A stretch of DNA of 64,000 nucleotides. Origin: Bacteroidetes bacterium HGW-Bacteroidetes-8 (lineage in GTDB: Bacteria; Bacteroidota; Bacteroidia; Bacteroidales; UBA932). The number at the start of each line of letters is the position of its first letter. Position 1 is the first letter of the stretch. The notes beneath the pieces were generated by a model that was not told the DNA's origin, made no database searches, and saw only the letters and a program-made list of their open reading frames with translations. A program made the position numbers and the translations under genes. Location: assembly GCA_002840895.1 (NCBI GenBank), contig PHCZ01000006.1, forward strand, positions 1-64,000, in the 5' to 3' direction. Of the stretch, positions 45,426-60,445 are shown one piece after another.

Positions 45426-46499
45426 ATGATAAAAGCACTTTATAACAAGCACCAATATTTTTTCAATATTTTTGCTGTTCTGGCATTGCTGGTAATTACC
45501 AGGTTGCTGGATGGATTTGCCTGGTATCCTCCATATCCGGATAAAACAAAATCCTTACTACTCGAACATCTGTTTCAATTCATCTCGTTTTTCCCATTTA
45601 TTTTCTTGATAATTTACACATACGGTTGGGCATTAAAAAGGAGAACGAAAACAGTTATATATTCTCTTATAATATTTTATGCTGTTTTCGCCCCTCTCTT
45701 TGTACTATGCTTTAGTACCTGGCTGGAGATAACGTTATTAAGAGCCAAAACTCTTCCTGTTACACTTAAACTTATTGAACAGTTCACTCCTGGAGCAGGT
45801 ATGGTTATCCTTTTTTTAAGTGCAACATACTTCCTTACATACCTTAAAATCCAATCTGCAAGTCAAAGAGAGGCGGCTCATAATGCAGAGTCATTGGTCA
45901 AAGACGTACAAATCAAAATGTTTCGCTATCAGATAAACCCTCATTTTCTATTTAATGTTTTAAACTCTATCTATACCTTAATAGATGAAAATACAGAGAA
46001 GGCGAAAAAACTTGTACTTGATATGTCGGATTATTACAGATATACTCTTACAAAACAAAAAGAGTGCGTCTCCATAGAAAGCGAGATAGAGTCTATCATT
46101 AAATACCTTGAAATTCAAAAAACAAGATTTGAAGAGAAGTTTCAATATGAGATATCTGTTGACGAAGCAGTAAGGCCTCTTTTAATACCCTCGTTTATTA
46201 TTCACCTTCTCATAGAAAACGCCATAAAATATGGCACAAAGACTACTAAACAAAAATTATTGGTCAATCTTTCAGTTAAACTTGTCAAAAAGGACCTTTT
46301 TATAAGAGTCTCAAATACGGGCAAACTACTTGAATTACCGACCAATAATGAAAAAAACACAGAAGGGACCAGCAATGGAATAGATAATTTAAAAAACAGA
46401 CTGGCCCTATATTTTGGAGACAACTACTCATTTTCGCTTGAAGAGGTTGACGAATGGGTTTTTGCAACAATAGAGATTAATAACATCATCACCCAATGA
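45426..46499 (+). CDS. LytS-type sensor histidine kinase (His_kinase family, N-terminal TM helices)
   Basis: ORF 357 aa; FRYQINPHFLFNVLNSIYTLI, LVLDMSDYYRYTL, VPSFIIHLLIENAIKYG-like region. Confidence 0.92.
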   Translation: MIKALYNKHQYFFNIFAVLALLVITRLLDGFAWYPPYPDKTKSLLLEHLFQFISFFPFIFLIIYTYGWALKRRTKTVIYSLIIFYAVFAPLFVLCFSTWLEITLLRAKTLPVTLKLIEQFTPGAGMVILFLSATYFLTYLKIQSASQREAAHNAESLVKDVQIKMFRYQINPHFLFNVLNSIYTLIDENTEKAKKLVLDMSDYYRYTLTKQKECVSIESEIESIIKYLEIQKTRFEEKFQYEISVDEAVRPLLIPSFIIHLLIENAIKYGTKTTKQKLLVNLSVKLVKKDLFIRVSNTGKLLELPTNNEKNTEGTSNGIDNLKNRLALYFGDNYSFSLEEVDEWVFATIEINNIITQ

Positions 46500-47227
46500 C
46501 ACCTATAAAAGCTATCATCGTAGATGACGAAAGACTTGCCAGGGTTAGTCTCAGGAGGTTGCTGGAACCTTACCCGGAAATTGAGATAGTGGGAGAGGCA
46601 GATTCGTGTAAAAGCGCCATTGATTTGATTGATGCCAATAAACCCAATTTGGTTTTTCTGGATATCCAGTTGAGCGGAGAGACCGGGTTTGATCTATTGG
46701 AATCGATTGACAAATCAATTAAAATATTTTTTGTTACAGCATTTGATGATTTTGCTATTCGCGCCTTTGAGGTTAATGCCATCGATTACCTGCTAAAACC
46801 TGTTAGTCCTCAGCGTCTAAAAGTCTCTCTGGATAGGTTGATAAACAGAGAAGATGTTCAGAAAAGCGTAGCAAACAGTTATGAATATTCCGACAGCATC
46901 TATGTGCGGATAAGTAATTATGCTTCCCGATTCATAAAAATCGGCACGATAACACTTATTGAACCGGTGGGAAATTACTCCAAAATCTTTACCACCGACG
47001 GTAAAAATTGTTTGGTACTAAAGACATTAAAACAGTGGCAGGAAGAGCTGCCCGGTAATTATTTTGTAAGGATTCACCGCTCTTGCATTATAAATATAGA
47101 ACACGTAGATCGCATAGAAATAGACTCAAAAACCCAGCACCGGGTTTTTCTGAAAAACATACCAAAACCGCTTGATGTTAGCCGTAGGTATGCGAAGAAA
47201 CTAAAATCCACTCATCACATTATTTGA
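46496..47227 (+). CDS. LytTR family response regulator
   Basis: ORF 243 aa; AIIVDDERLARVSLRRLL, LVFLDIQLSGETGFDLL, LytTR domain IEPVGNYSKIFTTDGKNCLVLKTLKQWQEELPGNYFVRIHRSCIIN; ATGA overlap with the kinase. Confidence 0.95.
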   Translation: MTPIKAIIVDDERLARVSLRRLLEPYPEIEIVGEADSCKSAIDLIDANKPNLVFLDIQLSGETGFDLLESIDKSIKIFFVTAFDDFAIRAFEVNAIDYLLKPVSPQRLKVSLDRLINREDVQKSVANSYEYSDSIYVRISNYASRFIKIGTITLIEPVGNYSKIFTTDGKNCLVLKTLKQWQEELPGNYFVRIHRSCIINIEHVDRIEIDSKTQHRVFLKNIPKPLDVSRRYAKKLKSTHHII

Positions 47228-47242
47228 CCACTAGTCATATTT
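47208..47242 (+). promoter_or_regulatory. Operator-like motif copy 1 (candidate LytTR binding site)
   Basis: CCACTCATCACATTATTTGACCACTAGTCATATTT; overlaps the LytTR gene stop codon and precedes the 47313 operon. Confidence 0.75.
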
Positions 47243-47265
47243 CTCATTGTTTTTGAATATCTCAT

Positions 47266-47276
47266 TATTTTATTTG
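47266..47276 (+). promoter_or_regulatory. Promoter-like -7 region downstream of motif copy 1
   Basis: TATTTTATTTG; final G is 51 bp after the T of the TGACC core. Confidence 0.55.
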
Positions 47277-47312
47277 TGCCGTTAATTTATACAAATTCGC
47301 AACAAATAAATT

Positions 47313-48167
47313 ATGAATATGGTTAAATATTTCTTTTTACTTTTTGTAATCTGTTTTCAATCGGCTATTTCTTTTTCTCAGGATACTCGCAAGATAAATT
47401 CTGATAAATCTCATGTTTTTTCATTTTATACGGGTTATTCTAAATACATAGAAAGAGATGATGCTATGTCTCCTTTTAAATATCGGGGATATTCATTACC
47501 ACTTGAGGTTACTTATAGGCACAATGGGGCTAAATGTCGCCAAATTTTTTATGTGAATTTTGATAAGTTGAAACTTTTATCTTCGCTGCCAAATTATGAA
47601 AATGCCGGCTTAAGCCATTATGTTCAGAATACCAATATTCAAATTGGATATTCTTATATGTACAGATTATTCAGATTAGCCAAATTTCAAACTGATATAT
47701 ATTTCGGAGGTGAAATCAATTCTTTATTAAATTTAAGACGACATGCGTATATTAATAATAATGAATTTTTGATGTTAGACCAGTTCAGCAGTATAGGATT
47801 AAAAGCTTTGATTGAAAAAAGATTTTCAAATGACAAACAAGTAGCAACTTTAAACATTAATATACCAATTCTCTCATATGCTTTAATGAAAAATACATAT
47901 AATGCCTATAACGGAGATAAAATTGACCCACTAATGAATTATAGTGGGAACATGTTGTTATACTTAGCTAAAAATGGAGATTTTGTTTCATTAAACAGGT
48001 TAGTATATTTTAAAACAGAGCTCTCTTTTATACAGTTTATTAGTAATCATATTGGCGTTGAATGTAAATTAAGTCTTCGCTACTATCAATTTACCCAATA
48101 TGAAGATATGAATTATTCCAAAAACCTTCAGAGTCAAATTTTAATAGGAATAGTTGGCAAATTATAA
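47313..48167 (+). CDS. Hypothetical secreted / outer-membrane protein
   Basis: ORF 284 aa; signal peptide FFLLFVICFQSAISFSQ, aromatic beta-strand-like repeats. Confidence 0.6.
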   Translation: MNMVKYFFLLFVICFQSAISFSQDTRKINSDKSHVFSFYTGYSKYIERDDAMSPFKYRGYSLPLEVTYRHNGAKCRQIFYVNFDKLKLLSSLPNYENAGLSHYVQNTNIQIGYSYMYRLFRLAKFQTDIYFGGEINSLLNLRRHAYINNNEFLMLDQFSSIGLKALIEKRFSNDKQVATLNINIPILSYALMKNTYNAYNGDKIDPLMNYSGNMLLYLAKNGDFVSLNRLVYFKTELSFIQFISNHIGVECKLSLRYYQFTQYEDMNYSKNLQSQILIGIVGKL

Positions 48168-48172
48168 AGAAT

Positions 48173-49213
48173 ATGAAAACTAAAATTTTTATTTTACTTC
48201 TTAGCATCATTTCGCTTTCAAGTTGCGAAAAGATTTTTTTTGAAGAGGATATCTCAAACACCCCAATAAATAACTTTGAAATGTTTTGGAGTGATTTTGA
48301 TAAGTTTTATCCTTCTTTTGAGATAAAACAGATAGATTGGGATTCTGTATATCGTATTAACAGACCTGGAATTTCAGATCAAACATCGGATATTCAGCTG
48401 TATAATGTTTTATCAAGTATGATTAAACCACTTAAGGATGGACATGTAACTCTTGTAAGTAATTTGGGGCAATGTGATTCAGATACAATTCCGCATGGTT
48501 ATTACAGCAATATGAGGATACATCCTCAAAACTACTTGTCTTCATTTGGGATTAATAATTCAAATATTTCTAATTGGTCCGTTAAGAATTATAATATTGG
48601 CTATATCAGCATAAATACATTTGATGTCAAAGGAGAAGCATTTGTTTATGCCGATGACAGCTTTTTAATAATTGATGATATAATAAAACAATTTAAAGAC
48701 AAAGACGGGATTATTATTGATTTGAGGTGGAATGGTGGAGGACTCCCCACAAATGTTGAAACAATTGCTAATAGGTTTACGGATTCAAAACGGCTTTATA
48801 TAAAACTTCGCTCTAAAAATGGGCCCCGGAAGAATGATTTTTCTGACTGGATCGATTGTTATATAGAACCAAAAGGTCCCGAGCAATTTTTAAAGCCTGT
48901 TGTAGTTCTTACAAGCAAGAGTACCGGAAGTGCTGCCGAATGGTTTACTTTAGCAATGAAAACATTGCCAAATACTTCAATTGTCGGAGATACGACTGCA
49001 GGTTGTTTTAGCCCAAAAATTGAACGAGAGTTGCCAAATGGCTGGTCGTTTACTTTATCGTCAAAAATTGCAGTTTCTGCCGGAATGGTACAGTATGAGG
49101 GTTTTGGCATTCCTCCTGATTATTATGTGCTTAACACAAAAAATGATTTAGATAACAAAAGAGATGCAATACTTGAAAAAGGGATTGAATTAATAGAAAT
49201 GAAAAAGAAATAA
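48173..49213 (+). CDS. S41 family (tail-specific) peptidase, lipoprotein
   Basis: ORF 346 aa; lipobox SLSSCEK, DGIIIDLRWNGGG, VVVLTSKSTGSAAEWFTLAMK. Confidence 0.9.
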   Translation: MKTKIFILLLSIISLSSCEKIFFEEDISNTPINNFEMFWSDFDKFYPSFEIKQIDWDSVYRINRPGISDQTSDIQLYNVLSSMIKPLKDGHVTLVSNLGQCDSDTIPHGYYSNMRIHPQNYLSSFGINNSNISNWSVKNYNIGYISINTFDVKGEAFVYADDSFLIIDDIIKQFKDKDGIIIDLRWNGGGLPTNVETIANRFTDSKRLYIKLRSKNGPRKNDFSDWIDCYIEPKGPEQFLKPVVVLTSKSTGSAAEWFTLAMKTLPNTSIVGDTTAGCFSPKIERELPNGWSFTLSSKIAVSAGMVQYEGFGIPPDYYVLNTKNDLDNKRDAILEKGIELIEMKKK

Positions 49214-49234
49214 TTATTATAAAAGGATAAATAA

Positions 49235-49660
49235 ATGAAAATTAATGTAAAAAGTGTATTTAAAAGTGGATTGGTTGCTGGGTTAGTAATCAGCATTAGC
49301 GCAATAAGTATGGTCCCTGTGGTTGGGAATGAAATGGATGTGGTTCTTGCAAGTAGGGGAGTCCCTCCATTAAGCAATCTGGCAATGGTGTTCTTCTGTT
49401 CAATATCGTTTATTTTCGGCATTTCTCTTGTCTGCTTGTATGCCCTTGTAAAAGAACACTTAGGGTCCGGGATTAAGACAGCGTTAATTGTATCATGTAT
49501 ATTCTGGTTCGTGACTTATTTTTTAAGTAATGTTTCCTTGCTGGCATATGGTTTTATGCCGGTTAAACTAACCGTTATAGGAACCATCTGGGGCTTAGGC
49601 GAACTATTGCTGGCAGGAATTGTCGGATCAAAATTATATAAGGATGTCAAGCCTGAATAA
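49235..49660 (+). CDS. Hypothetical membrane protein
   Basis: ORF 141 aa; four predicted TM stretches. Confidence 0.65.
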   Translation: MKINVKSVFKSGLVAGLVISISAISMVPVVGNEMDVVLASRGVPPLSNLAMVFFCSISFIFGISLVCLYALVKEHLGSGIKTALIVSCIFWFVTYFLSNVSLLAYGFMPVKLTVIGTIWGLGELLLAGIVGSKLYKDVKPE

Positions 49661-49671
49661 ATTAAAAAAAT

Positions 49672-50304
49672 ATGATAAAATTTGGAGAAACCGTAGAGGG
49701 TTATAATATCCCGGTTTTAAACGAGCGCGAAATACGAGCATCCGCAGGCATCTTGTTTTTGGCTACTTTCATTTCTTTAATGTTCATTCTCTTTAAAGAG
49801 AACTTTGTTCCAATAAAGTATGTAATTACTTTTTTCCTGGCAGATTTTCTGATACGGGTCTTTATTAGTCCAAAATTTTCGCCAACCCTCATTTTAGCGC
49901 GCTTGATTGTAAGGAATCAAACGCCTGAATATGTTGGAGCTCCCCCAAAAAAATTTGCCTGGATTATAGGTGTGGTATTATCGGCTACAATGTTTTTCTT
50001 TTTCATTATCGAAAATGCCTATAGCCCAATTACAGGTATTATCTGCCTCATTTGCCTTGTATTCCTGTTCTTTGAATCGGCTTTTGGAATTTGTCTGGGA
50101 TGTCTGTTTTATCCGCTATTTTTTAAAAATAAAACACTTTATTGTCCGGGTGACGTTTGTGAAGTAAAGAAAAAACAGGATATTCAAAAAACTTCTATAG
50201 GTCAGATACTTATTTTGCTGGCATTTATTGCATTCATCATTCTTACGGCATATTTTATGAATGATAGTTTTAGTGAAAAACCTTACGACTTATTTAAGAA
50301 TTAG
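49672..50304 (+). CDS. DUF4395-like membrane protein
   Basis: ORF 210 aa; PVLNEREIRASAGILFL, GAPPKKFAWIIGVVLS, FESAFGICLGCLFYPLFF. Confidence 0.7.
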   Translation: MIKFGETVEGYNIPVLNEREIRASAGILFLATFISLMFILFKENFVPIKYVITFFLADFLIRVFISPKFSPTLILARLIVRNQTPEYVGAPPKKFAWIIGVVLSATMFFFFIIENAYSPITGIICLICLVFLFFESAFGICLGCLFYPLFFKNKTLYCPGDVCEVKKKQDIQKTSIGQILILLAFIAFIILTAYFMNDSFSEKPYDLFKN

Positions 50305-50314
50305 AATATTGTTT

Positions 50315-51121
50315 ATGGAAAGTAATGCTCGGTTTCCTTACCGTTTTTTCGTTATAACATTTATATGGTCGTGGATAATCTGGACTCCACTCATCCTTGG
50401 CAACTTCGGAATCATCCCTGTCTCAGATAAATTGTTGTCAATCTTGACAATGCCAGTGTTAATGTTGGGAGTTTTCGGGCCACTTGCTGGTGCACTTTTT
50501 ACTTTATACAAAGAAAAAGGCAAGGGTTCTTCAAGAAAATACCTACGAAGTTTTTTTGATTTCAATTTAGGTTGGAGAACTTATGTTTTTCCCATAATAA
50601 TATTTGGTGGCAGTACATTTATTGCTTGGTTTTCTCCGGAACTGTTTGGCGAAAAAAGATTGTCAATGTTGCTACCCTCAATATGGGTCTTTATTCCTTG
50701 TTTATTATTCATGATTATTTTAGGTGGAGGTCAGGAAGAGTTTGGCTGGCGCGGATATGCTCTTCCGTTTCTTGAAAGGAAATTTGGACTATGGTTCGCA
50801 AACATTATTTTAGGGATCATCTGGGCTTTCTGGCATTTACCTTTATGGTTCATAGCAGGTACAAGTCAGATTTACATGAACTTCGGAGGTTTTATACTCC
50901 TGATGGTTGGATACTCCTTCATTTTATCGTGGCTCCTAAAAATCTCAGGCAACAGACCGTTTTCTGGACTTTATGTTCATGGCCTTTTTAATGCCTTAAT
51001 CTCTCTTATGCCAACCTTTATTATGCAAAAAAATGTACCACAGACCCGTTTTTGGATCTGGGCAATTCTGACATTATTAATTGGTATTTCGATTACCATA
51101 TTGCGTAAAAGAAATCGATAA
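50315..51121 (+). CDS. CPBP family intramembrane metalloprotease
   Basis: GGGQEEFGWRGYALPFLERKFG...IIWAFWHLPLWF. Start trimmed from 50261 to Met 50315. Confidence 0.92.
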   Translation: MESNARFPYRFFVITFIWSWIIWTPLILGNFGIIPVSDKLLSILTMPVLMLGVFGPLAGALFTLYKEKGKGSSRKYLRSFFDFNLGWRTYVFPIIIFGGSTFIAWFSPELFGEKRLSMLLPSIWVFIPCLLFMIILGGGQEEFGWRGYALPFLERKFGLWFANIILGIIWAFWHLPLWFIAGTSQIYMNFGGFILLMVGYSFILSWLLKISGNRPFSGLYVHGLFNALISLMPTFIMQKNVPQTRFWIWAILTLLIGISITILRKRNR

Positions 51122-51154
51122 AACATTCTATAAGTCATAATTAAATAACAAATT

Positions 51155-51316
51155 ATGATAGTTACTAAAAAGAGTAATTAGGTTATAATAACATTAGTTG
51201 TTTTAATCACTGCCAAAAATGGTTTATTTGCACAACAAGAAAAATTATTATCCAAAAGGTTTCAGGAGGATATTGAAAAAGTTGAAGCTGCATATTTGGA
51301 AAGTATCTCACATTAA
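51155..51316 (+). pseudogene. Truncated secreted-protein gene remnant with an in-frame TAG
   Basis: atg...MIVTKKSN-stop(51179)-VIITLVVLITAKNGLFAQQEKLLSKRFQEDIEKVEAAYLESISH-stop; signal-peptide-like reading frame continues past the TAG. Confidence 0.5.
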
Positions 51317-52429
51317 CAATTCGGAAGTCTTAAAGATTGAATTCAAACCTTCAGGTATCTTCTTATTAAACGGCCAGTCCAGGTAATTCAGATCGTGATT
51401 GTGTCCCTCAAAAAAGAAACATTTTAAATTTGACTTATTGGCTTGCCTGAATCTGGATTGAATATCGTATACTCCTTCGACAGGAGCATTACCATCTTCA
51501 ATTCCATGAAATATATAAGTCGGAATATCAATTCTTAACAATCTTGTTTTATTGGCTTCAAGCTTAAAATGCTCCTTAAGCCATCTGCTGCTTACTCTGA
51601 AATAATTTTTCCATATCCAGGCATCACTGTCTGAATCAATCATTTTTAATAAATATTCAAAATATGGAGCAGCCCTAGTACCAAAGTCACGGTAATCAAG
51701 AACACTGTCTTTTACTATGTCGAGCGATTCAAACGAAGCATTCCCCAGCACTCTGGTTCTGCCCAGTACGGCAATTGAGTCAGATGATTCATACTCATTT
51801 TTACTAATCATATTGTCCTTGTTCGAATCAAAGTATTTTCGAAGGTTAATAATAGAAGCTTTTCCTGAGTATTGCCATTTTATTATATCAAACAAGTTGT
51901 CGTTAGCATAACCAAATAGTAGTAGTGCATCAATTTTTTCAACCTTCCTGTCTGCAACTATTGACGCAATTATTGTTCCTTCACTACAACCCAGCAAAGC
52001 TATTTTTGTGTTTACGAATCTCTTGTCATTCCTTAAAGTTGAAATTATTGCTTCTATATCCTCTGCTTCCGTTATGGGAAGATATTTAGAGTATTTTACG
52101 GAATCAATTTTATCATAATAAGGAGGAGTATCTCCAATTTCTACCCCTCTTCTGTTATAGGAAAAAAATCCAATTCCTCTTTTGTTAAATTCGTCGGCAA
52201 ACAGATCAAAATAGTTAAATTCGGTATTCCCAATTTTTCTTTTATTAATATAGGTATTCGGGCCTGTACCGTGCACGAAAACAACCAGTAATGGGACTTT
52301 ATTCCCCTGTGGAAGTTTCAATTGTCCTGTTATGCTTTCTCCATCGGACAACCGTACTTTCACAATTTCTTCTCCAAACGCGCAGATACTTAAGTTAATA
52401 ACAATCAATAATATTAAAATCTTTTTCAT
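51308..52429 (-). CDS. Secreted alpha/beta hydrolase with an internal EF-hand-like insertion
   Basis: ORF 373 aa; VFVHGTGPNTY, LLGCSEGTIIAS nucleophile elbow, DSNKDNMISKNEYE EF-hand loop. Confidence 0.85.
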   Translation of the reverse strand: MKKILILLIVINLSICAFGEEIVKVRLSDGESITGQLKLPQGNKVPLLVVFVHGTGPNTYINKRKIGNTEFNYFDLFADEFNKRGIGFFSYNRRGVEIGDTPPYYDKIDSVKYSKYLPITEAEDIEAIISTLRNDKRFVNTKIALLGCSEGTIIASIVADRKVEKIDALLLFGYANDNLFDIIKWQYSGKASIINLRKYFDSNKDNMISKNEYESSDSIAVLGRTRVLGNASFESLDIVKDSVLDYRDFGTRAAPYFEYLLKMIDSDSDAWIWKNYFRVSSRWLKEHFKLEANKTRLLRIDIPTYIFHGIEDGNAPVEGVYDIQSRFRQANKSNLKCFFFEGHNHDLNYLDWPFNKKIPEGLNSIFKTSELLM

Positions 52430-53052
52430 ATAGATTCGCTATTAAAAGTTAGTTGAGTATGCAACTCTTTCAAAAATTCAAGATTTTTTATTTGATACTT
52501 GCGAATTTTATTAATTGCAAAGTAGGAGACGAAAAAGCCAACCAGAAACCCGACGATAAGACCGATTATTGATTCTTCACTCTTCATTACTTCAACAAAC
52601 GGTTTATATTCATAATAAACGTGGATTGATATATTTATCATCACTAAAAGAATTGGAATTATTACAATATATAATTTGCTGTATTTACCCAATAACCATC
52701 TTGACAACAAATTGATTCTTTGTTCCAACCAATCCTTTAATGACAAGTTGCATTGATTACGATTCAATTTATTCAATGAAAATAGAGAAATAATTAAAGC
52801 GGAGAATGTTATAAGAAAGAGTATAGAATTATTAATCAGATAGAAAATGTCATCCTGCCTGTTAAGAGCTGTCACGATTAAAAAGACAATCAAACCAAAA
52901 CTCACAATAATATCTATACTAAGAATAAAGAAAAATTTATTAATTGTTTTCCTGATTTTGTTATCTAATAATTGATTCAGTTGCCCGGTTGTTTTTAGAT
53001 CAATTTCGGAATCAATATTTTTCCATATTTTTTGTAGCTCATTATTTTCCAT
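52426..53052 (-). CDS. Membrane protein encoded with an ECF sigma factor (possible anti-sigma role)
   Basis: ORF 208 aa; multiple TM helices; overlaps the sigma gene by 11 bp and the hydrolase gene by 4 bp. Confidence 0.6.
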   Translation of the reverse strand: MENNELQKIWKNIDSEIDLKTTGQLNQLLDNKIRKTINKFFFILSIDIIVSFGLIVFLIVTALNRQDDIFYLINNSILFLITFSALIISLFSLNKLNRNQCNLSLKDWLEQRINLLSRWLLGKYSKLYIVIIPILLVMINISIHVYYEYKPFVEVMKSEESIIGLIVGFLVGFFVSYFAINKIRKYQIKNLEFLKELHTQLTFNSESI

Positions 53053-53545
53053 AGTTGAGGGGATTTAAATTTTGTTTCAGGAGTTCTTTAGCTCTATTAA
53101 TTCGTACACCTACATTGGATTTGGATATACCAATGATTTGGGCAATTTCATCATAACTCTTCTCTTCAAGGTATAAAAGCATTATCGGTTTGTCAATTTC
53201 ATTAAGATTGTAAATCGCTCCCAATAGCATCTTACTTACTTCACTTAAGGATAGTTCTTCAATTATATCAATCTTGTCAAAAGATTCTGGGAGTTTTTCT
53301 CGGTACTCAATTCGTGACTCTTTCTTCAATTTCGAAATTGAAGTATTAATAGATACAGCATAGATCCACGAGCCTATACTACTCTTATTCTTTAAACCCG
53401 GGAATGATTTCCAAAGTTGATAAATGATCTCTTGAAAATTATCCTCTCTGTCCGAAGCATTTTTGAAGTAGATAAGGTTTACCTTATGCAGTATGCCTTG
53501 ATAATTTGATAATATTTCCAGAAAATCGTCTTTAATTGACTTCAT
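53042..53545 (-). CDS. ECF RNA polymerase sigma-70 factor
   Basis: ORF 167 aa; DREDNFQEIIYQLWKSFPGLKNKSSIGSWIYAVSINTSISKLKK, LEEKSYDEIAQIIGISKSNVGVRINRAKELL. Confidence 0.93.
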   Translation of the reverse strand: MKSIKDDFLEILSNYQGILHKVNLIYFKNASDREDNFQEIIYQLWKSFPGLKNKSSIGSWIYAVSINTSISKLKKESRIEYREKLPESFDKIDIIEELSLSEVSKMLLGAIYNLNEIDKPIMLLYLEEKSYDEIAQIIGISKSNVGVRINRAKELLKQNLNPLNYGK

Positions 53546-53665
53546 ATTAAAATTCTTTACTTATAAAGTATCACGGAATGAAGATTTATTACAAAATAAC
53601 TGAAAAAATATTTTGAAATGTATACAAACGAATTGGACCTGTAAAAATGGTTTCTAAAAATAGCA

Positions 53666-53700
53666 CCAGTTATCATATTATTTGACCGCTAGTCATATTT
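53666..53700 (+). promoter_or_regulatory. Operator-like motif copy 2 (candidate LytTR binding site)
   Basis: CCAGTTATCATATTATTTGACCGCTAGTCATATTT upstream of the 53766 operon. Confidence 0.75.
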
Positions 53701-53723
53701 TTCATTGAGTTTATCTGCAGGGA

Positions 53724-53734
53724 TATTTCCTTTG
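53724..53734 (+). promoter_or_regulatory. Promoter-like -7 region downstream of motif copy 2
   Basis: TATTTCCTTTG; final G is 51 bp after the T of the TGACC core. Confidence 0.55.
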
Positions 53735-53765
53735 GGCAATTAAAAAAATAAAAGCGAAATAACTT

Positions 53766-54230
53766 ATGACATCTAAAACAAAATTTTTAAGACAAATCTT
53801 AATCACAGTAGCTGTAATAGCCTTGCTTTCAAGCTGCAGCACAATTAATCGCAGTATGAGAGAGCCCGATACAAGGGTTAATCTAAGAATGAGCGATTTC
53901 TCACTATCAAACCAAGTAACAGCAACAGCAACATCAGTAAAGGTTATTGGCATCGACTGGGCAAGACTTTTTAAGAAAAAAACAGGGGTGGTTGATGGTA
54001 GTAGATCCTCCACAATCAATCTGGTATGTATTCCTGTAATTGGAAATATTGTATCAGACAGGACTGCAAATTATTCTCTCTATGAGTTGATGAGTGATAG
54101 TCCCGGGTACGATGTGGTCTTTTACCCTCAATATGAAACAAAAATTTTAAGACCCGTGTTAGGCATCGGCTTCTTTTCTAAAATTACAACGGTAAAGACA
54201 ACAGCCAGACTTGGGAAAATGAATAATTAA
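53766..54230 (+). CDS. Hypothetical lipoprotein
   Basis: ORF 154 aa; lipobox ALLSSCST. Confidence 0.7.
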   Translation: MTSKTKFLRQILITVAVIALLSSCSTINRSMREPDTRVNLRMSDFSLSNQVTATATSVKVIGIDWARLFKKKTGVVDGSRSSTINLVCIPVIGNIVSDRTANYSLYELMSDSPGYDVVFYPQYETKILRPVLGIGFFSKITTVKTTARLGKMNN

Positions 54231-54243
54231 AAAGGGGGATTAT

Positions 54244-55257
54244 ATGAAAGCAATTGTTTTTACAGAATATGGCGCACCAGAGGTGCTGAAACTCAAAGAG
54301 GTTCCAAAACCAAAGCCAAAGGATAATGAAATCCTTATAAAGATCTACGCAACGCCATTAAATTTTGGAGATACACTTGTAAGAAAATTCAACACCATTA
54401 CCCCGAAAAAATTCCATATGCCGTTCATATTCTGGTTTTTAGGAAAATTTTATTTTGGTTTCAAAAAACCTAAAATAGAGATATTGGGGAGTGAATTTTC
54501 CGGGAAAGTTGAATCTATCGGTAAAAATGTAAAGAGGTTTATAGCAGGAGATCAGGTCTTCGGATATCGTGGCCCACGTATGGGTGCTTATGCAGAGTAC
54601 TTGTGTATGAACGAGAATGACGTTGTTGCTCATAAACCAACCAATATGTCATATGAACAGGCAGCCGCTATACCTTACGGTGCAATTATGGCATTAGGTT
54701 CTATTAGAAAAGCAAATCTGAAAGCTAAACAGAGCGTTTTAGTCAACGGAGCTTCCGGCGGCATAGGTCCTATTGTGGTGCAACTTGCAAAATATCATTT
54801 TGATGCAATTGTAACCGGAGTTTGCGGGACACCTAGAATACCGTATGTTATCTCTATGGGTGCAGATAAGGTAATCGACTACACTAAAGAGGATTTTAGT
54901 AAAAACGGAGAGACCTATGACTATATTTTTGACATTCTAGGGAAATGTTCAATAGAAATGTGCAAACGCTCACTTAAGAAAAACGGGAGCTGCCTATACG
55001 TAAGTTTTAAGATGAAGCAGGTTTTTCAAATGTTATGGAGATCAATAGCCGGAAATAAGAAAATAGTCTGTGTAATGGTTAATGAAAACAGAAAAGATTT
55101 GATTTTCATTAAAGAGCTTATAGAGGCGGGTAAGATTAAATCAATAGTAGACAGATGCTATAGATTAGAGGAGGCTGCCGAAGCACACAGATATTTTGAA
55201 AGCGGGAACAAGCAAGGCAGTGTTGTATTAAAGTTATATGATGAGCATAATATTTAA
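54244..55257 (+). CDS. MDR-superfamily NAD(P)-dependent alcohol dehydrogenase / quinone oxidoreductase
   Basis: ORF 337 aa; MKAIVFTEYGAPEVLKLKEVPKP, VLVNGASGGIGPIVVQLAKY, GADKVIDYTKEDF. Confidence 0.92.
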   Translation: MKAIVFTEYGAPEVLKLKEVPKPKPKDNEILIKIYATPLNFGDTLVRKFNTITPKKFHMPFIFWFLGKFYFGFKKPKIEILGSEFSGKVESIGKNVKRFIAGDQVFGYRGPRMGAYAEYLCMNENDVVAHKPTNMSYEQAAAIPYGAIMALGSIRKANLKAKQSVLVNGASGGIGPIVVQLAKYHFDAIVTGVCGTPRIPYVISMGADKVIDYTKEDFSKNGETYDYIFDILGKCSIEMCKRSLKKNGSCLYVSFKMKQVFQMLWRSIAGNKKIVCVMVNENRKDLIFIKELIEAGKIKSIVDRCYRLEEAAEAHRYFESGNKQGSVVLKLYDEHNI

Positions 55258-55286
55258 TAGCACTATTTCACAATAACGGAAGATGA

Positions 55287-55321
55287 CCACTTATCACATT
55301 ATGTGACCACTAATCATAATT
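55287..55321 (+). promoter_or_regulatory. Operator-like motif copy 3 (candidate LytTR binding site)
   Basis: CCACTTATCACATTATGTGACCACTAATCATAATT upstream of the 55379 operon. Confidence 0.72.
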
Positions 55322-55344
55322 ATAGTTTATTTTATTGACTCTGG

Positions 55345-55355
55345 TACTTTCTTTG
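55345..55355 (+). promoter_or_regulatory. Promoter-like -7 region downstream of motif copy 3
   Basis: TACTTTCTTTG; final G is 51 bp after the T of the TGACC core. Confidence 0.55.
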
Positions 55356-55378: not shown

Positions 55379-56221
55379 ATGAAACAAGTAAAACTAACAC
55401 CCAAAAAGGCATTTATGAAATGCGGAACCTGCAGCAGTGCTATGTTCCGTTTGCTTAATCAGGAGTTTGACAACCTGAGTGAGACAGAAGAAAAAGCGTG
55501 TGACCTTTTAGCAGGAGGGGTAGCACAAAAGGGGCACCAGTGCGGGATGCTTTGGGGTGCCTCTCTGGCTGTCGGAGCGGAATCACTCAAAAGACACAGT
55601 GACAAAAACGAAGCAATTGCATCTTCAATAACAGCGTCACAATTCATAGTCGAATCATTTAAAAAGAGAACCAAAACAGTTAATTGCAGGGAGATTTCAG
55701 GAATTGATTGGGAAAACAAACTGGATTTTGCCCTCTATATGGCAAAAACTATTCTGCAGGGATTTGTATACAGTCCTTGTTTCAAACTTATTGACAAATG
55801 GACCCCGGAAGCCATTCAGGCTGCAAATAAAGGGTTTGCAGGTAAAACGAGATACAGCAAAAATTGTATAAGCTGTGCATCCGAGGTTGTAAAAAAAATG
55901 GGGGCAAGTGAGCAGGAGAGTATTATAGTTTCGGGTTTTGCAGGAGGAATTGGCCTGAGTGGAAATGGTTGCGGGGCTTTAAGTGCAGCAATATGGTATA
56001 AAATGTTAGACTGGGCGAAAAAGAATACCGGGAAAAACCCTGCCTTTTTTAATAATCAGGATGTAAAGAGTTTATTAAGGTCATTTTATATCCAAACTGA
56101 CTCCGAAATGTTGTGCAGGAAGATTTGCGGGAAACAATTTGAATCAATTGACGAGCACTCGGATTATATTCGAAGCGGTGGCTGTAAAAACATAATTGAA
56201 GCACTGGCAAATTCACGATGA
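55379..56221 (+). CDS. C_GCAxxG_C_C family putative redox protein with duplicated domain
   Basis: ORF 280 aa; AGGVAQKGHQCGMLWGASLAVG and AGGIGLSGNGCGALSAAIWYKM, each preceded by a CxxC (CGTC, CISC). Confidence 0.82.
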   Translation: MKQVKLTPKKAFMKCGTCSSAMFRLLNQEFDNLSETEEKACDLLAGGVAQKGHQCGMLWGASLAVGAESLKRHSDKNEAIASSITASQFIVESFKKRTKTVNCREISGIDWENKLDFALYMAKTILQGFVYSPCFKLIDKWTPEAIQAANKGFAGKTRYSKNCISCASEVVKKMGASEQESIIVSGFAGGIGLSGNGCGALSAAIWYKMLDWAKKNTGKNPAFFNNQDVKSLLRSFYIQTDSEMLCRKICGKQFESIDEHSDYIRSGGCKNIIEALANSR

Positions 56222-57369
56222 ACAGATTTCTTTATAAACGGCAGGTCTATCTTGACAATAATGCCACAACACGCGTTAGCAAGAGTGTCAGGAGAGTAAT
56301 GGGGCGTGTATTGAAATACAATTGGGGAAACCCATCTTCCGGATACTATATGGGCAAAAGGGCTGCCCGTATAATTGAAAAGGCACGGCAGCAGGTTGCC
56401 GATTCAATAAATGCACATTCGCACGAGTTATATTTTACGGGTTGTGCTACAGAGTCGAATAATGCAGCTTTAATAACCCTAAGTAATCACTTCTATCCAA
56501 AGAAGAAAAAAATCATCACAACACCTATTGAACACCCCTCTATAATGAACACTCTAGAGTTTCTGCAAACTCAAGGAGTTGTGGTTCAACTCTGTCCTGT
56601 AGACAGATATGGATTTATTTCCCTTAAAGAGTTAGAGACTCTTATAGATGAAGAGACCTTTTTAATATGCTGTATGTTTGCAAATAATGAGATAGGATCA
56701 ATTCAAAATATCAAAGAAGTTTCTGCCCTTGCAAAATCACAGAATGTTCTAGTTTTGTGTGATTGCGTTCAGGCGCTTGGCAAGGTTCCTGTTGATGTAA
56801 AGGATCTCGGTGTTGATTATGCCACATTTTCTGCACATAAACTCTATGGGCCAAAGGGAGTTGGAGCACTATATGCAAAAATAAGTACTCCTCTGGAGCC
56901 ATTCATTCACGGCGGGCACCAGGAAGAGGGAATGCGTGCCGGAACAGAGTCAACTCATAATATCGCAGGATTTGGTATGGCTTGTAAGGATGTTAAAAAC
57001 CTTATAACCAATTCCGAAAAAACAAGACGACTAAAAGAACAATTTATAAAACAACTTAAAGGCATCAAACCAGATATAATAATCAATTCGCCAACAGATA
57101 ATTGTTTGCCAAATACAGTCAGTATTACTTTCCCAAATATCAACATCAAAGAACTAATGATGATGTTAGATTATAACGGCATTGCCGTATCATCAGGTTC
57201 TGCGTGCAGCAGTCAATTAAACAAACCGTCCCACGTTTTAAAAGCGATTGGATTATCCGATATAGCAGCAGCAGGAACTCTTCGAATCAGTTTCAGTAAA
57301 GAGACATCGGAGAGAGATATTAGATATACTGTAAAAGTGATAGATAATTATTTAGCACTAGCAAAATAA
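56218..57369 (+). CDS. IscS/NifS-type cysteine desulfurase family protein
   Basis: ORF 383 aa; VYLDNNATTRVSKSV, DYATFSAHKLYGPKGVGALY, GIAVSSGSACSSQLNKPSHVLKAIG; ATGA overlap with upstream CDS. Confidence 0.92.
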   Translation: MNRFLYKRQVYLDNNATTRVSKSVRRVMGRVLKYNWGNPSSGYYMGKRAARIIEKARQQVADSINAHSHELYFTGCATESNNAALITLSNHFYPKKKKIITTPIEHPSIMNTLEFLQTQGVVVQLCPVDRYGFISLKELETLIDEETFLICCMFANNEIGSIQNIKEVSALAKSQNVLVLCDCVQALGKVPVDVKDLGVDYATFSAHKLYGPKGVGALYAKISTPLEPFIHGGHQEEGMRAGTESTHNIAGFGMACKDVKNLITNSEKTRRLKEQFIKQLKGIKPDIIINSPTDNCLPNTVSITFPNINIKELMMMLDYNGIAVSSGSACSSQLNKPSHVLKAIGLSDIAAAGTLRISFSKETSERDIRYTVKVIDNYLALAK

Positions 57370-57389
57370 GAGTAACTAAAACTAAATAA

Positions 57390-58106
57390 ATGACAATTGA
57401 ATCAATAAAAAAGAGAGGTTTTGGAATCTCAATAATTGTATTTCCAGTAATGCTGTTTGTAGGGTTTTTAATGCACCCCAACATTCTAAATCTCGAGGCT
57501 CTTCAAACGGTTGAACAACTAGTTGGAAGATTTCATAATCAGCCCATATTCCATTTTGGGCACCTGCTTGTAATGTTTGCCGTCCCGGTTATAATGATAG
57601 CGCTGATTAGTTTTATGAATGTGCTGCGAGGGAAGGGCAAACAATTAGGTTTTTGGGGCGGGGTTATTGGTTTATTTGGAGCTTTCATCTTAGCCGTGGA
57701 CAAAGGCGCTTTATGTTTGGTATTATCTGCATTCGATACTTTGCCAGAGGCTCAATTTCAAGAGTTTGCTCCTTTTCTTAGTGTTGTTGTAAATAAAGCC
57801 GGCTTGCTTTGGGTGGTTTGGTTATTACCATTATTACCAATTGGTGCATCAATACAAGCACTGGGCCTATTAAAAGAAAAATTTATCAGCAAATGGCAGG
57901 GAGTGTGCATTATTTTGGGGCTTCTGTTGCTTAACAACCCAGATATTGAACTAATTAGTGCAACTGGTGCTTTGCTTATGTGTGCCGGATACATTCCGTG
58001 GGGCGTCAGGATACTTCAGGGCAGAATGTATTGCTCTTCAACCTCTTGCCCTATATACGACAAAAAAAAAGATAAAAACCTTAGGTGTCATAAACCGTGT
58101 AATTAA
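57390..58106 (+). CDS. Hypothetical multi-pass membrane protein with Cys-rich C-terminal tail
   Basis: ORF 238 aa; several TM stretches; tail YCSSTSCPIYDKKKDKNLRCHKPCN. Confidence 0.65.
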   Translation: MTIESIKKRGFGISIIVFPVMLFVGFLMHPNILNLEALQTVEQLVGRFHNQPIFHFGHLLVMFAVPVIMIALISFMNVLRGKGKQLGFWGGVIGLFGAFILAVDKGALCLVLSAFDTLPEAQFQEFAPFLSVVVNKAGLLWVVWLLPLLPIGASIQALGLLKEKFISKWQGVCIILGLLLLNNPDIELISATGALLMCAGYIPWGVRILQGRMYCSSTSCPIYDKKKDKNLRCHKPCN

Positions 58107-58178
58107 ATATTTTAACCCATAACATATGGATAAAACATACAGACTCAAAACCGGGTTGATAAATTATACAAACATAAA

Positions 58179-59453
58179 ATGAGACATATAGCATTATTAT
58201 TTCTGTTTACAGGTTTAACTATTAATGCGTTAGGGCAAAGCTCAACACTAAAAGAACAGGCTCTGAATGAGTTCAAAAAAGAACATTACTCAGAAGCAAT
58301 TGCCCTGTTGGAACAAGCGGCAAAAGTGACCCCAAAGGATGCCGAAATTTTTTACTATTTAGGATGGTTCAACCATTACAGGGCATACGATAGTCGACCA
58401 TTGAGCGGATACAACTTTTCATATTCCGAACAAATTTTGAAATATTTGGACAAAGCCCTTGAACTCAAGCCCGATTATGGTGATGCAAAGTACTTTTACG
58501 GTGCGGAATGTAGCGGAAACGCCTTTATTGCAATGCAGGATAATGATGCAGAGAAGTTAAGGTATTTCTATAAATTGGCCAATGATAGAGGTGCATATCC
58601 GGCCTGGCTGAAAGAGTTTGGGCGGAATTTCCTGAATAGTTGCGATACAAACGCAATTTTATTTACTGGCGGAAATGCCGATTTTGATGTTTGTCTTTAT
58701 TTGCAACTTCACGAAAAGATAAGAACCGATATTACCCTTTTGCCCATTGGAAACATTGACCGGCCTTGGTATGTGAAATTCTTGAAAAACGGATTGGAAG
58801 GTGCTATTAAAAAAGTTGAATTAAACCTTACCGACCAACAAATAATGGATATACATCCCTTTAAATGGGATACGACAATGGTTTCGATAAAAAGTTCATC
58901 AGAGGACAAAAAGCAATTTGGGTTATCAGACAACTATCTGTTTCAATGGCAGGTTGAACCTGACCTGTTTTCTGAAAGGATGCACTCAAAAATTGAAAGC
59001 GAAAAAGCAAAAAAGCGCGCATACCTAAGCCCGCAAAGAGCCATACTTTTGCAGATAGTAGAAGACAATTTTTCTCACAGACCAATTTATTTCTCAAACT
59101 TTTGCTCCCCAACACTTTTTGGGGGACTGAATTCATTTTTTCAAAACTGTGGGCTGGTTTCACGCCTAACGCCTGTTTTGACAAAGGACACAGAATTTGC
59201 ATTCAATTATTCAAAAATGGAAGAATTGCTTCAAGAACAGAATGTTATAAATTTTAAAACATTAATAAATAGTAGTATGCCTCGCATTTCCGGTGTTATA
59301 GTATCTGGTTATTACAACACTTTGCTTAATCTATCTGAAAAATACGACAAGACGAATAACTTAAAAGGTAAAAATTACCTGAAACTGCTATTTGAAAAGC
59401 ACATAAAGATAGGATATGACACAGAATTTGAGAATGAAATACAAATAAAATGA
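58179..59453 (+). CDS. TPR protein with a DUF2723-C-terminal-like segment, secreted
   Basis: ORF 424 aa; signal peptide, TPR EQALNEFKKEHYSEAIALLEQAAKVTPKDAEIFYYLG, then NAILFTGGNADFDVCLYLQLHEKIRTDITLLPIGNIDRPWYVKFLKNG and HRPIYFSNF. Confidence 0.7.
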   Translation: MRHIALLFLFTGLTINALGQSSTLKEQALNEFKKEHYSEAIALLEQAAKVTPKDAEIFYYLGWFNHYRAYDSRPLSGYNFSYSEQILKYLDKALELKPDYGDAKYFYGAECSGNAFIAMQDNDAEKLRYFYKLANDRGAYPAWLKEFGRNFLNSCDTNAILFTGGNADFDVCLYLQLHEKIRTDITLLPIGNIDRPWYVKFLKNGLEGAIKKVELNLTDQQIMDIHPFKWDTTMVSIKSSSEDKKQFGLSDNYLFQWQVEPDLFSERMHSKIESEKAKKRAYLSPQRAILLQIVEDNFSHRPIYFSNFCSPTLFGGLNSFFQNCGLVSRLTPVLTKDTEFAFNYSKMEELLQEQNVINFKTLINSSMPRISGVIVSGYYNTLLNLSEKYDKTNNLKGKNYLKLLFEKHIKIGYDTEFENEIQIK

Positions 59454-60445
59454 AAGCAATTGTACATTCAAAATATGGACCTCCTGACGAACTACAGCTT
59501 AAAGAGGTACAAAAACCAGTTCCCAAGGAGAATGAAGTGTTGATAAAAATACACGCGACAACAGTAACAACTACGGACTGCAACGCTCGTAACTTCACAT
59601 TTGTCCCTAAATCATTTATGTTTTTCGCGCGATTAGTGTTTGGCTTCAAAACCCCCAAAATAAATATACTAGGGATTGATTTGGCAGGAGAAATTGAAGC
59701 CGTAGGCAAAGATGTGAAGCTATTTAAGAAGGGTGACCAGGTTTTTGGATCACCCGGAACCAAATTCGGTGCCCACGCAGAGTATGTTTGTGTTCCCGAA
59801 GATGGTGCACTGGCCATAAAACCGGCTAGTATGTCCTGGGAGGAGGCTGCCGCTATTTCATTAGCAGGAAATACAGCACTGTTTTTTATAAGAGATTTGG
59901 CAAAAATTCAAGCCGGACAAAAAATACTTATCCACGGCGCTTCCGGGGCAATAGGGACTTATGCCGTTCAACTTGCCAAGTTCTACGGAGCAGAAGTTAC
60001 CGGAGTCTGCAGTTCAACAAATGCACAAATGGTTAAATCTTTAGGTGCAGATAAGATAATTGATTATACCAAAGAGGATTTTACCAAAACCGATGAGAGA
60101 TATGATTTTGTTTTTGATGTAGTAGGCAAGACGACATTCTCTCAATGCAAGGGCATATTAAAACAAAAGGGAATTTATCTTGAAAACAACCTTGAACTAA
60201 AGGATATTCTAATAATGATGTGGAGATCATTAGTTGGAGGTAAAAAAATTAAGGGAGGGGTATCAATTGAGAGTGCAGAAAACCTGAATTTCTTTATTGA
60301 ACTGATAGAATCAGGAAAGTTAAAACCGGTTATTGATAAAACATTTCCACTTGAAAAGACCGCAGAAGCTTTTCGATATGTCGAGCTAGGACATAAAAAA
60401 GGGAATGTAGTCATTATAAACCAGTCATTTAATTGTAACTTTTAA
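59450..60445 (+). CDS. MDR-superfamily NAD(P)-dependent alcohol dehydrogenase (paralogue of 54244-55257)
   Basis: ORF 331 aa; MKAIVHSKYGPPDELQLKEVQKP, ILIHGASGAIGTYAVQLAKFYGAEVTGVCSS; ATGA overlap with upstream CDS. Confidence 0.92.
   Translation: MKAIVHSKYGPPDELQLKEVQKPVPKENEVLIKIHATTVTTTDCNARNFTFVPKSFMFFARLVFGFKTPKINILGIDLAGEIEAVGKDVKLFKKGDQVFGSPGTKFGAHAEYVCVPEDGALAIKPASMSWEEAAAISLAGNTALFFIRDLAKIQAGQKILIHGASGAIGTYAVQLAKFYGAEVTGVCSSTNAQMVKSLGADKIIDYTKEDFTKTDERYDFVFDVVGKTTFSQCKGILKQKGIYLENNLELKDILIMMWRSLVGGKKIKGGVSIESAENLNFFIELIESGKLKPVIDKTFPLEKTAEAFRYVELGHKKGNVVIINQSFNCNF

Follow-up and report, generated by a model that had tools for sequence, protein, structure and literature searches.

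Beside a LytTR two-component system in a Bacteroidales genome lie three copies of a repeated motif, each in front of a different operon. Are these copies the operators of that LytTR regulator and, if so, how would it act on them? We examined a stretch of 64,000 nucleotides that contains all three copies (the window), the whole genome assembly and related genomes. We think it very probable, as a whole account, that the phosphorylated LytTR protein binds to direct repeats and activates the three neighbouring operons as a local regulon. The features of the locus are collected in Table 1.

A repeat joined to a promoter at fixed spacing

We scanned the window with a degenerate 35-mer and found matches with 0 mismatches at 47208, 53666 and 55287 (+ strand) and nowhere else, as the original prediction had it; in dinucleotide shuffles, the count was 0.00 even when up to 3 mismatches were allowed. 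Extended to the whole assembly (2,903,425 bp, 22 contigs), a scan that had been proposed together with the motif, the pattern occurs in the same three places only and is not scattered through the genome. When a 72-position profile was run on this genome, the next match after the three copies had an E-value of 0.08 with partial coverage of the model. A different gene starts downstream of each copy (separate ATGs at 47313, 53766 and 55379), and copy 1 does overlap the stop codon of the LytTR gene, whose reading frame ends within the copy (...AAA TCC ACT CAT CAC ATT ATT TGA, or ...KSTHHII-stop).

The internal structure of the motif differs from the one first described. By aligning the copies together with their flanks, we found that the repeat unit is ACCRCTNATCAT-N8-ACCRCTNATCAT, a direct repeat with the 20-bp period that had been correctly read from the start. 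We rejected TCAYATT as the half-site: the conserved core begins at ACC, TCAYA is merely the 3′ part of ACCRCTNATCAT, and the supposed opposed TGA midway between the half-sites is the TGACC that opens half-site 2. The 9-bp cores (ACCRCTNAT) are separated by a spacer of 11 bp, and copies 1 and 2 have an imperfect half-site 1. Sites of LytTR response regulators consist of two 9–11-nt repeats with 11–13 bp between them, near target promoters (PMC4847170); here, two ACCRCTNAT cores with an 11-bp spacer stand beside each of three promoters.

The unit is also longer than the proposed length of about 35 bp. It spans 72 bp, comprising the repeat and a −33/−7 promoter at fixed spacing. In the aligned copies, a Bacteroidota-type promoter (TTTG-N19-TTNNTTTG) begins 10 bp after the 9-bp core; its −7 element lies at an identical base offset in all three copies and ends 52 nt after the start of TGACC, and the start codons follow 24–37 nt beyond it. 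When the DNA downstream of the three window copies was shuffled 20,000 times, a −7 offset shared by all three arose in only 2 cases. Among 17 sites, 16 share a single start offset of the −7 element, compared to at most 4 of 17 in shuffles. The primary sigma factor of Bacteroides is reported to have the consensus TTTG near −33 and TAnnTTTG at −7 (PMC7366714). A promoter of this sigma-ABfr type (TTTG-like, N19, TTNNTTTG/A) is present at 16 of the 17 sites, and the second base of the −7 element is nearly always T. If the −7 element is placed at −7, the centre of the repeat falls at about −57.

Across families, the repeat and the promoter elements vary little or not at all, and the stretch from −33 to −7 is nearly unconserved, which argues against a small dispersed repeat, or a duplicated promoter segment, whose copies have no common regulator. 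The spacer ATTAT between the half-sites is common to copies 1–3, which may mean that one copy arose from another. Unrelated genes stand behind the sites, however, the genome holds no further copies, and the co-occurrence of the sites with one clade of LytTR regulators, described below, makes such an origin unlikely; we consider it exceedingly improbable.

Table 1. Coordinates of the kinase–regulator pair, the operator copies, their promoters and the putative target operons in the window.
Feature	Position	Strand	Description
LytS-type sensor histidine kinase	45426..46499	+	357 aa; Pfam His_kinase PF06580
LytTR response regulator, proposed operator ligand	46496..47227	+	Pfam LytTR 2.1e-22; receiver (Response_reg) 2.4e-21
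Operator copy 1	47207..47238	+	half-sites 47207-47218 and 47227-47238; half-site 1 within last LytTR codons
Promoter copy 1	47246..47276	+	−33 ATTG 47246-47249; 19-nt spacer; −7 TTTATTTG 47269-47276
Putative target operon 1	47313..51121	+	behind copy 1; predicted exported 284-aa protein of no known family, S41 peptidase, 141-aa membrane protein, DUF4395, Rce1-like protease
Operator copy 2	53665..53696	+	half-sites 53665-53676 and 53685-53696
Promoter copy 2	53704..53734	+	−33 ATTG 53704-53707; −7 TTCCTTTG 53727-53734
Putative target operon 2	53766..55257	+	behind copy 2; 154-aa predicted lipoprotein, zinc-type dehydrogenase
Operator copy 3	55286..55317	+	half-sites 55286-55297 and 55306-55317; closest to consensus
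Promoter copy 3	55325..55355	+	−33 GTTT 55325-55328 (weak); −7 TTTCTTTG 55348-55355
Putative target operon 3	55379..60445	+	provisional extent; behind copy 3; C_GCAxxG_C_C redox protein, NifS-like cysteine desulfurase, membrane protein, TPR protein, second zinc-type dehydrogenase

The LytTR clade and its sites

The regulator has the domain order of a LytTR response regulator, a receiver followed by a LytTR domain, and the FhRhHRS motif of the LytTR family, to which AgrA belongs, aligns with FVRIHRS in its sequence. Hydropathy analysis places at least three strongly hydrophobic segments in the N-terminus of the kinase, Pfam recognised no domain other than His_kinase in this protein, and kinase orthologues at L077, L099 and L100 are 57–58% identical. 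In the window genome, the histidine kinase gene has no site in front of it, and autoregulation is therefore not evident. In G346, an extra site (L100:11322) is found 88 nt upstream of the kinase gene, and the system looks autoregulated there.

Using a protein search that made no use of the motif, we found LytTR orthologues in five further genomes at about 50–72% identity. These genomes, from other families of the order, are G265 (67%), G346 (60%), G267 (52%), G396 (50%) and G163, which has two orthologues (72%, cut by the contig end, and 53%) and was independently recovered with a strict pattern. At the orthologue loci, the repeat and promoter recur in the same 72-bp layout with an unchanged offset, directly after the stop codon of the regulator. 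Every LytTR gene of the clade has a site at its stop codon, and all three sites are retained in two genomes of the same genus (G016 and G008). Near more distant LytTR regulators (42–50% identical), no such site was found.

A strict pattern scan of 85,462 species returned only the two nearest relatives and G163, because the sites of the orthologues differ in their letters and a profile model is needed. Applied to 393 genomes of the order, the 72-position profile gave 16 strong sites (E ≤ 2.5e-6, the model E-values being rough), confined to six genomes that also supplied the training sites, so that their recovery is by construction and it is the 387 absences and four further sites that are independent. 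The six genomes with full-length sites are exactly those that hold the LytTR clade. Three of the four further sites have the complete layout, and the fourth (L166) has a degenerate −7 element. Profile matches below about 28 bits were partial and were taken as chance. A class-wide scan of 388 genomes with the profile found no full-length site beyond the window's own genome.

Sites from outside the window also recover its three copies. With a matrix built from nine sites of other families, the copies scored 50.6, 46.2 and 45.7 bits and the next match in the 64 kb scored 3.6; with 14 external sites, they scored 47–49 bits, the next match −1.0, and the maximum in 30 shuffles was 4.6. The site-bearing regulators are monophyletic (support 99/98). 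In G433, a genome of the same family as G346 that was found by the profile, a site with the full layout overlaps the 3′ end of the gene of a 67%-identical LytTR protein, like copy 1. Based on the orthologue loci, the occurrence of sites with this clade only, its monophyly and the G433 site, the original assignment of the neighbouring LytTR protein as the candidate binder is therefore supported and extended, and we infer from these comparisons that it binds the three sites directly. Given that about 15 proteins in the genome match this response regulator, another LytTR protein could share the sites.

The LytTR gene is the only gene that adjoins a site in 6 of 6 genomes, which bears on whether the operators belong instead to another nearby regulator, such as the ECF sigma factor at 53042-53545. 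Copies 1 and 2 do enclose the gene of this factor and its partner genes, a set of three that is conserved in G396 at 65–81% identity. The promoter half nevertheless has the form of a housekeeping promoter, TTTG/TTNNTTTG, and what precedes it is a direct repeat spanning two turns, built on a half-site known from LytTR regulators. At the examined site-bearing loci of G163, G265, G346 and G267 (the loci only), we found no ECF orthologue. Because an orthologue is missing from most of the site-bearing loci examined, the ECF sigma factor is an unlikely binder, and we regard control of the operators by a regulator of this kind as very improbable.

A sequence-free geometry search at 18 more distant LytTR loci yielded scattered weak candidates only, and we therefore do not claim this layout for other LytTR subfamilies.

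A weaker site was seen in G267 (L166:3903, contig C116), in front of a 127-aa receiver-only relative of the regulator, which is 52% identical over 108 aa and is without a LytTR domain.

Direction of control and comparison with known LytTR systems

We propose that the proteins encoded at 45426-47227 form a LytS/LytTR two-component system whose LytTR protein would act when phosphorylated. A pair of LytTR molecules would sit head-to-tail on one face of the DNA, at the 20-bp-period repeat ACCRCTNATCAT-N8-ACCRCTNATCAT centred at about −57. Once bound, the pair would recruit or stabilise RNA polymerase with the housekeeping sigma-ABfr-type factor at the adjoining weak promoter, TTTG-N19-TTNNTTTG, and the three neighbouring operons would be switched on together as one local regulon. 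Most probably, each site serves as an operator for activation, at a constant position of about −57.

Alternatively, the LytTR protein could use the same repeats to repress the three promoters, or to exert both signs of control according to its phosphorylation state. Every site ends upstream of −33, in the activator position of AgrA (about −60) and of HdrR/BrsR-type systems, and activation by polymerase contact would be expected to go with a constant helical phase between site and promoter, as seen here. A LytTR protein beside the −33 element could also block the polymerase, and for AgrA both signs of control are reported, activation from upstream sites and repression of bsaA from a site downstream of its promoter (PMC4227749). 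We consider repression, alone or in part, to be unlikely, and we infer that control is by activation and depends on phosphorylation.

The closest known systems are those of AgrA, HdrR/BrsR and BtsR. AgrA of Staphylococcus aureus is a LytTR response regulator with direct repeats at about −60, just upstream of the P2 and P3 promoters (PMC4227749), in agreement with the centre of the window repeat at about −57; AgrA differs in being part of a quorum-sensing peptide system with another type of promoter. The HdrRM/BrsRM LytTR Regulatory Systems of Streptococcus mutans and its relatives have repeats of the form ACCACTTAT-12 bp-ACCGCTTAT, mostly 10 bp upstream of −35, and a minority of the HdrR/BrsR-type repeats have 11-bp spacing (PMC6193735). 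The window follows their rule of about 10 bp to the −35/−33 element (10 bp from ACCRCTNAT to TTTG), and its 11-bp core spacing corresponds to their minority class. The regulators of those systems are paired with a membrane inhibitor protein and control their own operon, whereas the window regulator has a receiver domain, a histidine kinase partner and sites in front of three other operons.

The half-site itself is also found upstream of btsT in Escherichia coli (TGACCGCTTA-...-TAACCACTCA), the target of BtsS/BtsR (YehU/YehT), which, like the window pair, combines a LytS-type kinase with a LytTR regulator. Among NCBIfam models, the window regulator matches BtsR best, at 158 bits against a cut-off of 246, and we rejected membership in the BtsSR family on this score. 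The repeat period is 21 bp at btsT and 20 bp in the window and at the sites of its relatives. The BtsS type of kinase has 7 transmembrane segments and binds pyruvate, whereas the 357-aa window kinase has His_kinase as its only recognised domain and three clear hydrophobic segments. In addition, the targets in the window are unrelated and the promoter is of the Bacteroidota type.

There is thus precedent for every design element, namely the half-site, the 11-bp spacer and the 10-bp promoter distance, and the window system appears to be an unusually clean new example in Bacteroidales of a known type of LytTR switch. Because half-site, spacing and promoter distance repeat the rules of Firmicutes, the view that the geometry of LytTR activation is conserved across phyla, despite different sigma factors, is supported. 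Predicted LytTR repeats in Bacteroides are followed by TGTA-19 bp-TATCTTTG (PMC6193735). Our literature search, in which subscription journals were poorly covered, returned only these predicted repeats and no experimentally defined LytTR operator in Bacteroidota. In this little-documented group, a regulator, its recognition sequence and the promoter geometry are here linked by sequence alone, and with the 72-bp model, members of the regulon can be found in Bacteroidales genomes assembled from metagenomes.

Putative targets and possibly mobile cargo

The content of the putative regulon is almost completely different between genomes, and the element is constant. In other genomes, the genes behind the sites encode secreted beta-propeller proteins (PD40, SBBP, Kelch), some with a type IX secretion tail, and a CarboxypepD_reg/TonB-plug-like protein. 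The varied target genes mean that functional coherence gives no argument for the regulon.

In G163 (contig C120, L077:5870-7649), one of the operator-promoters is followed directly by genes for a class I lanthipeptide precursor (NCBIfam lant_leader_L1a) and a LanC-like protein. This arrangement suggests that lanthipeptide production may be regulated there through the LytTR element.

Some cargo is held in common with G396 and is far more alike than the regulators: the ECF sigma factors are 81% identical, the DUF4395 proteins 84% and the hydrolases 79%, compared to 50% for the LytTR proteins. This difference hints at a transfer of cassettes between genomes. The 72-bp element might then be a portable regulatory address, with which cassettes cross between families to be captured by the recipient's LytTR protein of the clade, although we hold this extension to be rather doubtful.

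The ECF sigma gene of the window belongs to a unit on the − strand (51308-53545) that also encodes a small predicted membrane protein and an alpha/beta hydrolase; its counterpart in G396 lies beside other LytTR sites.

In G008 (contig C130, L041:10566-12134), an AAA_14/DUF4143 ATPase gene has been inserted exactly in operator copy 1. The insertion is flanked on both sides by a duplication of 22 bp of the operator (CCACTCATCATATTATTTGACC), and the downstream copy is intact, with its promoter kept.
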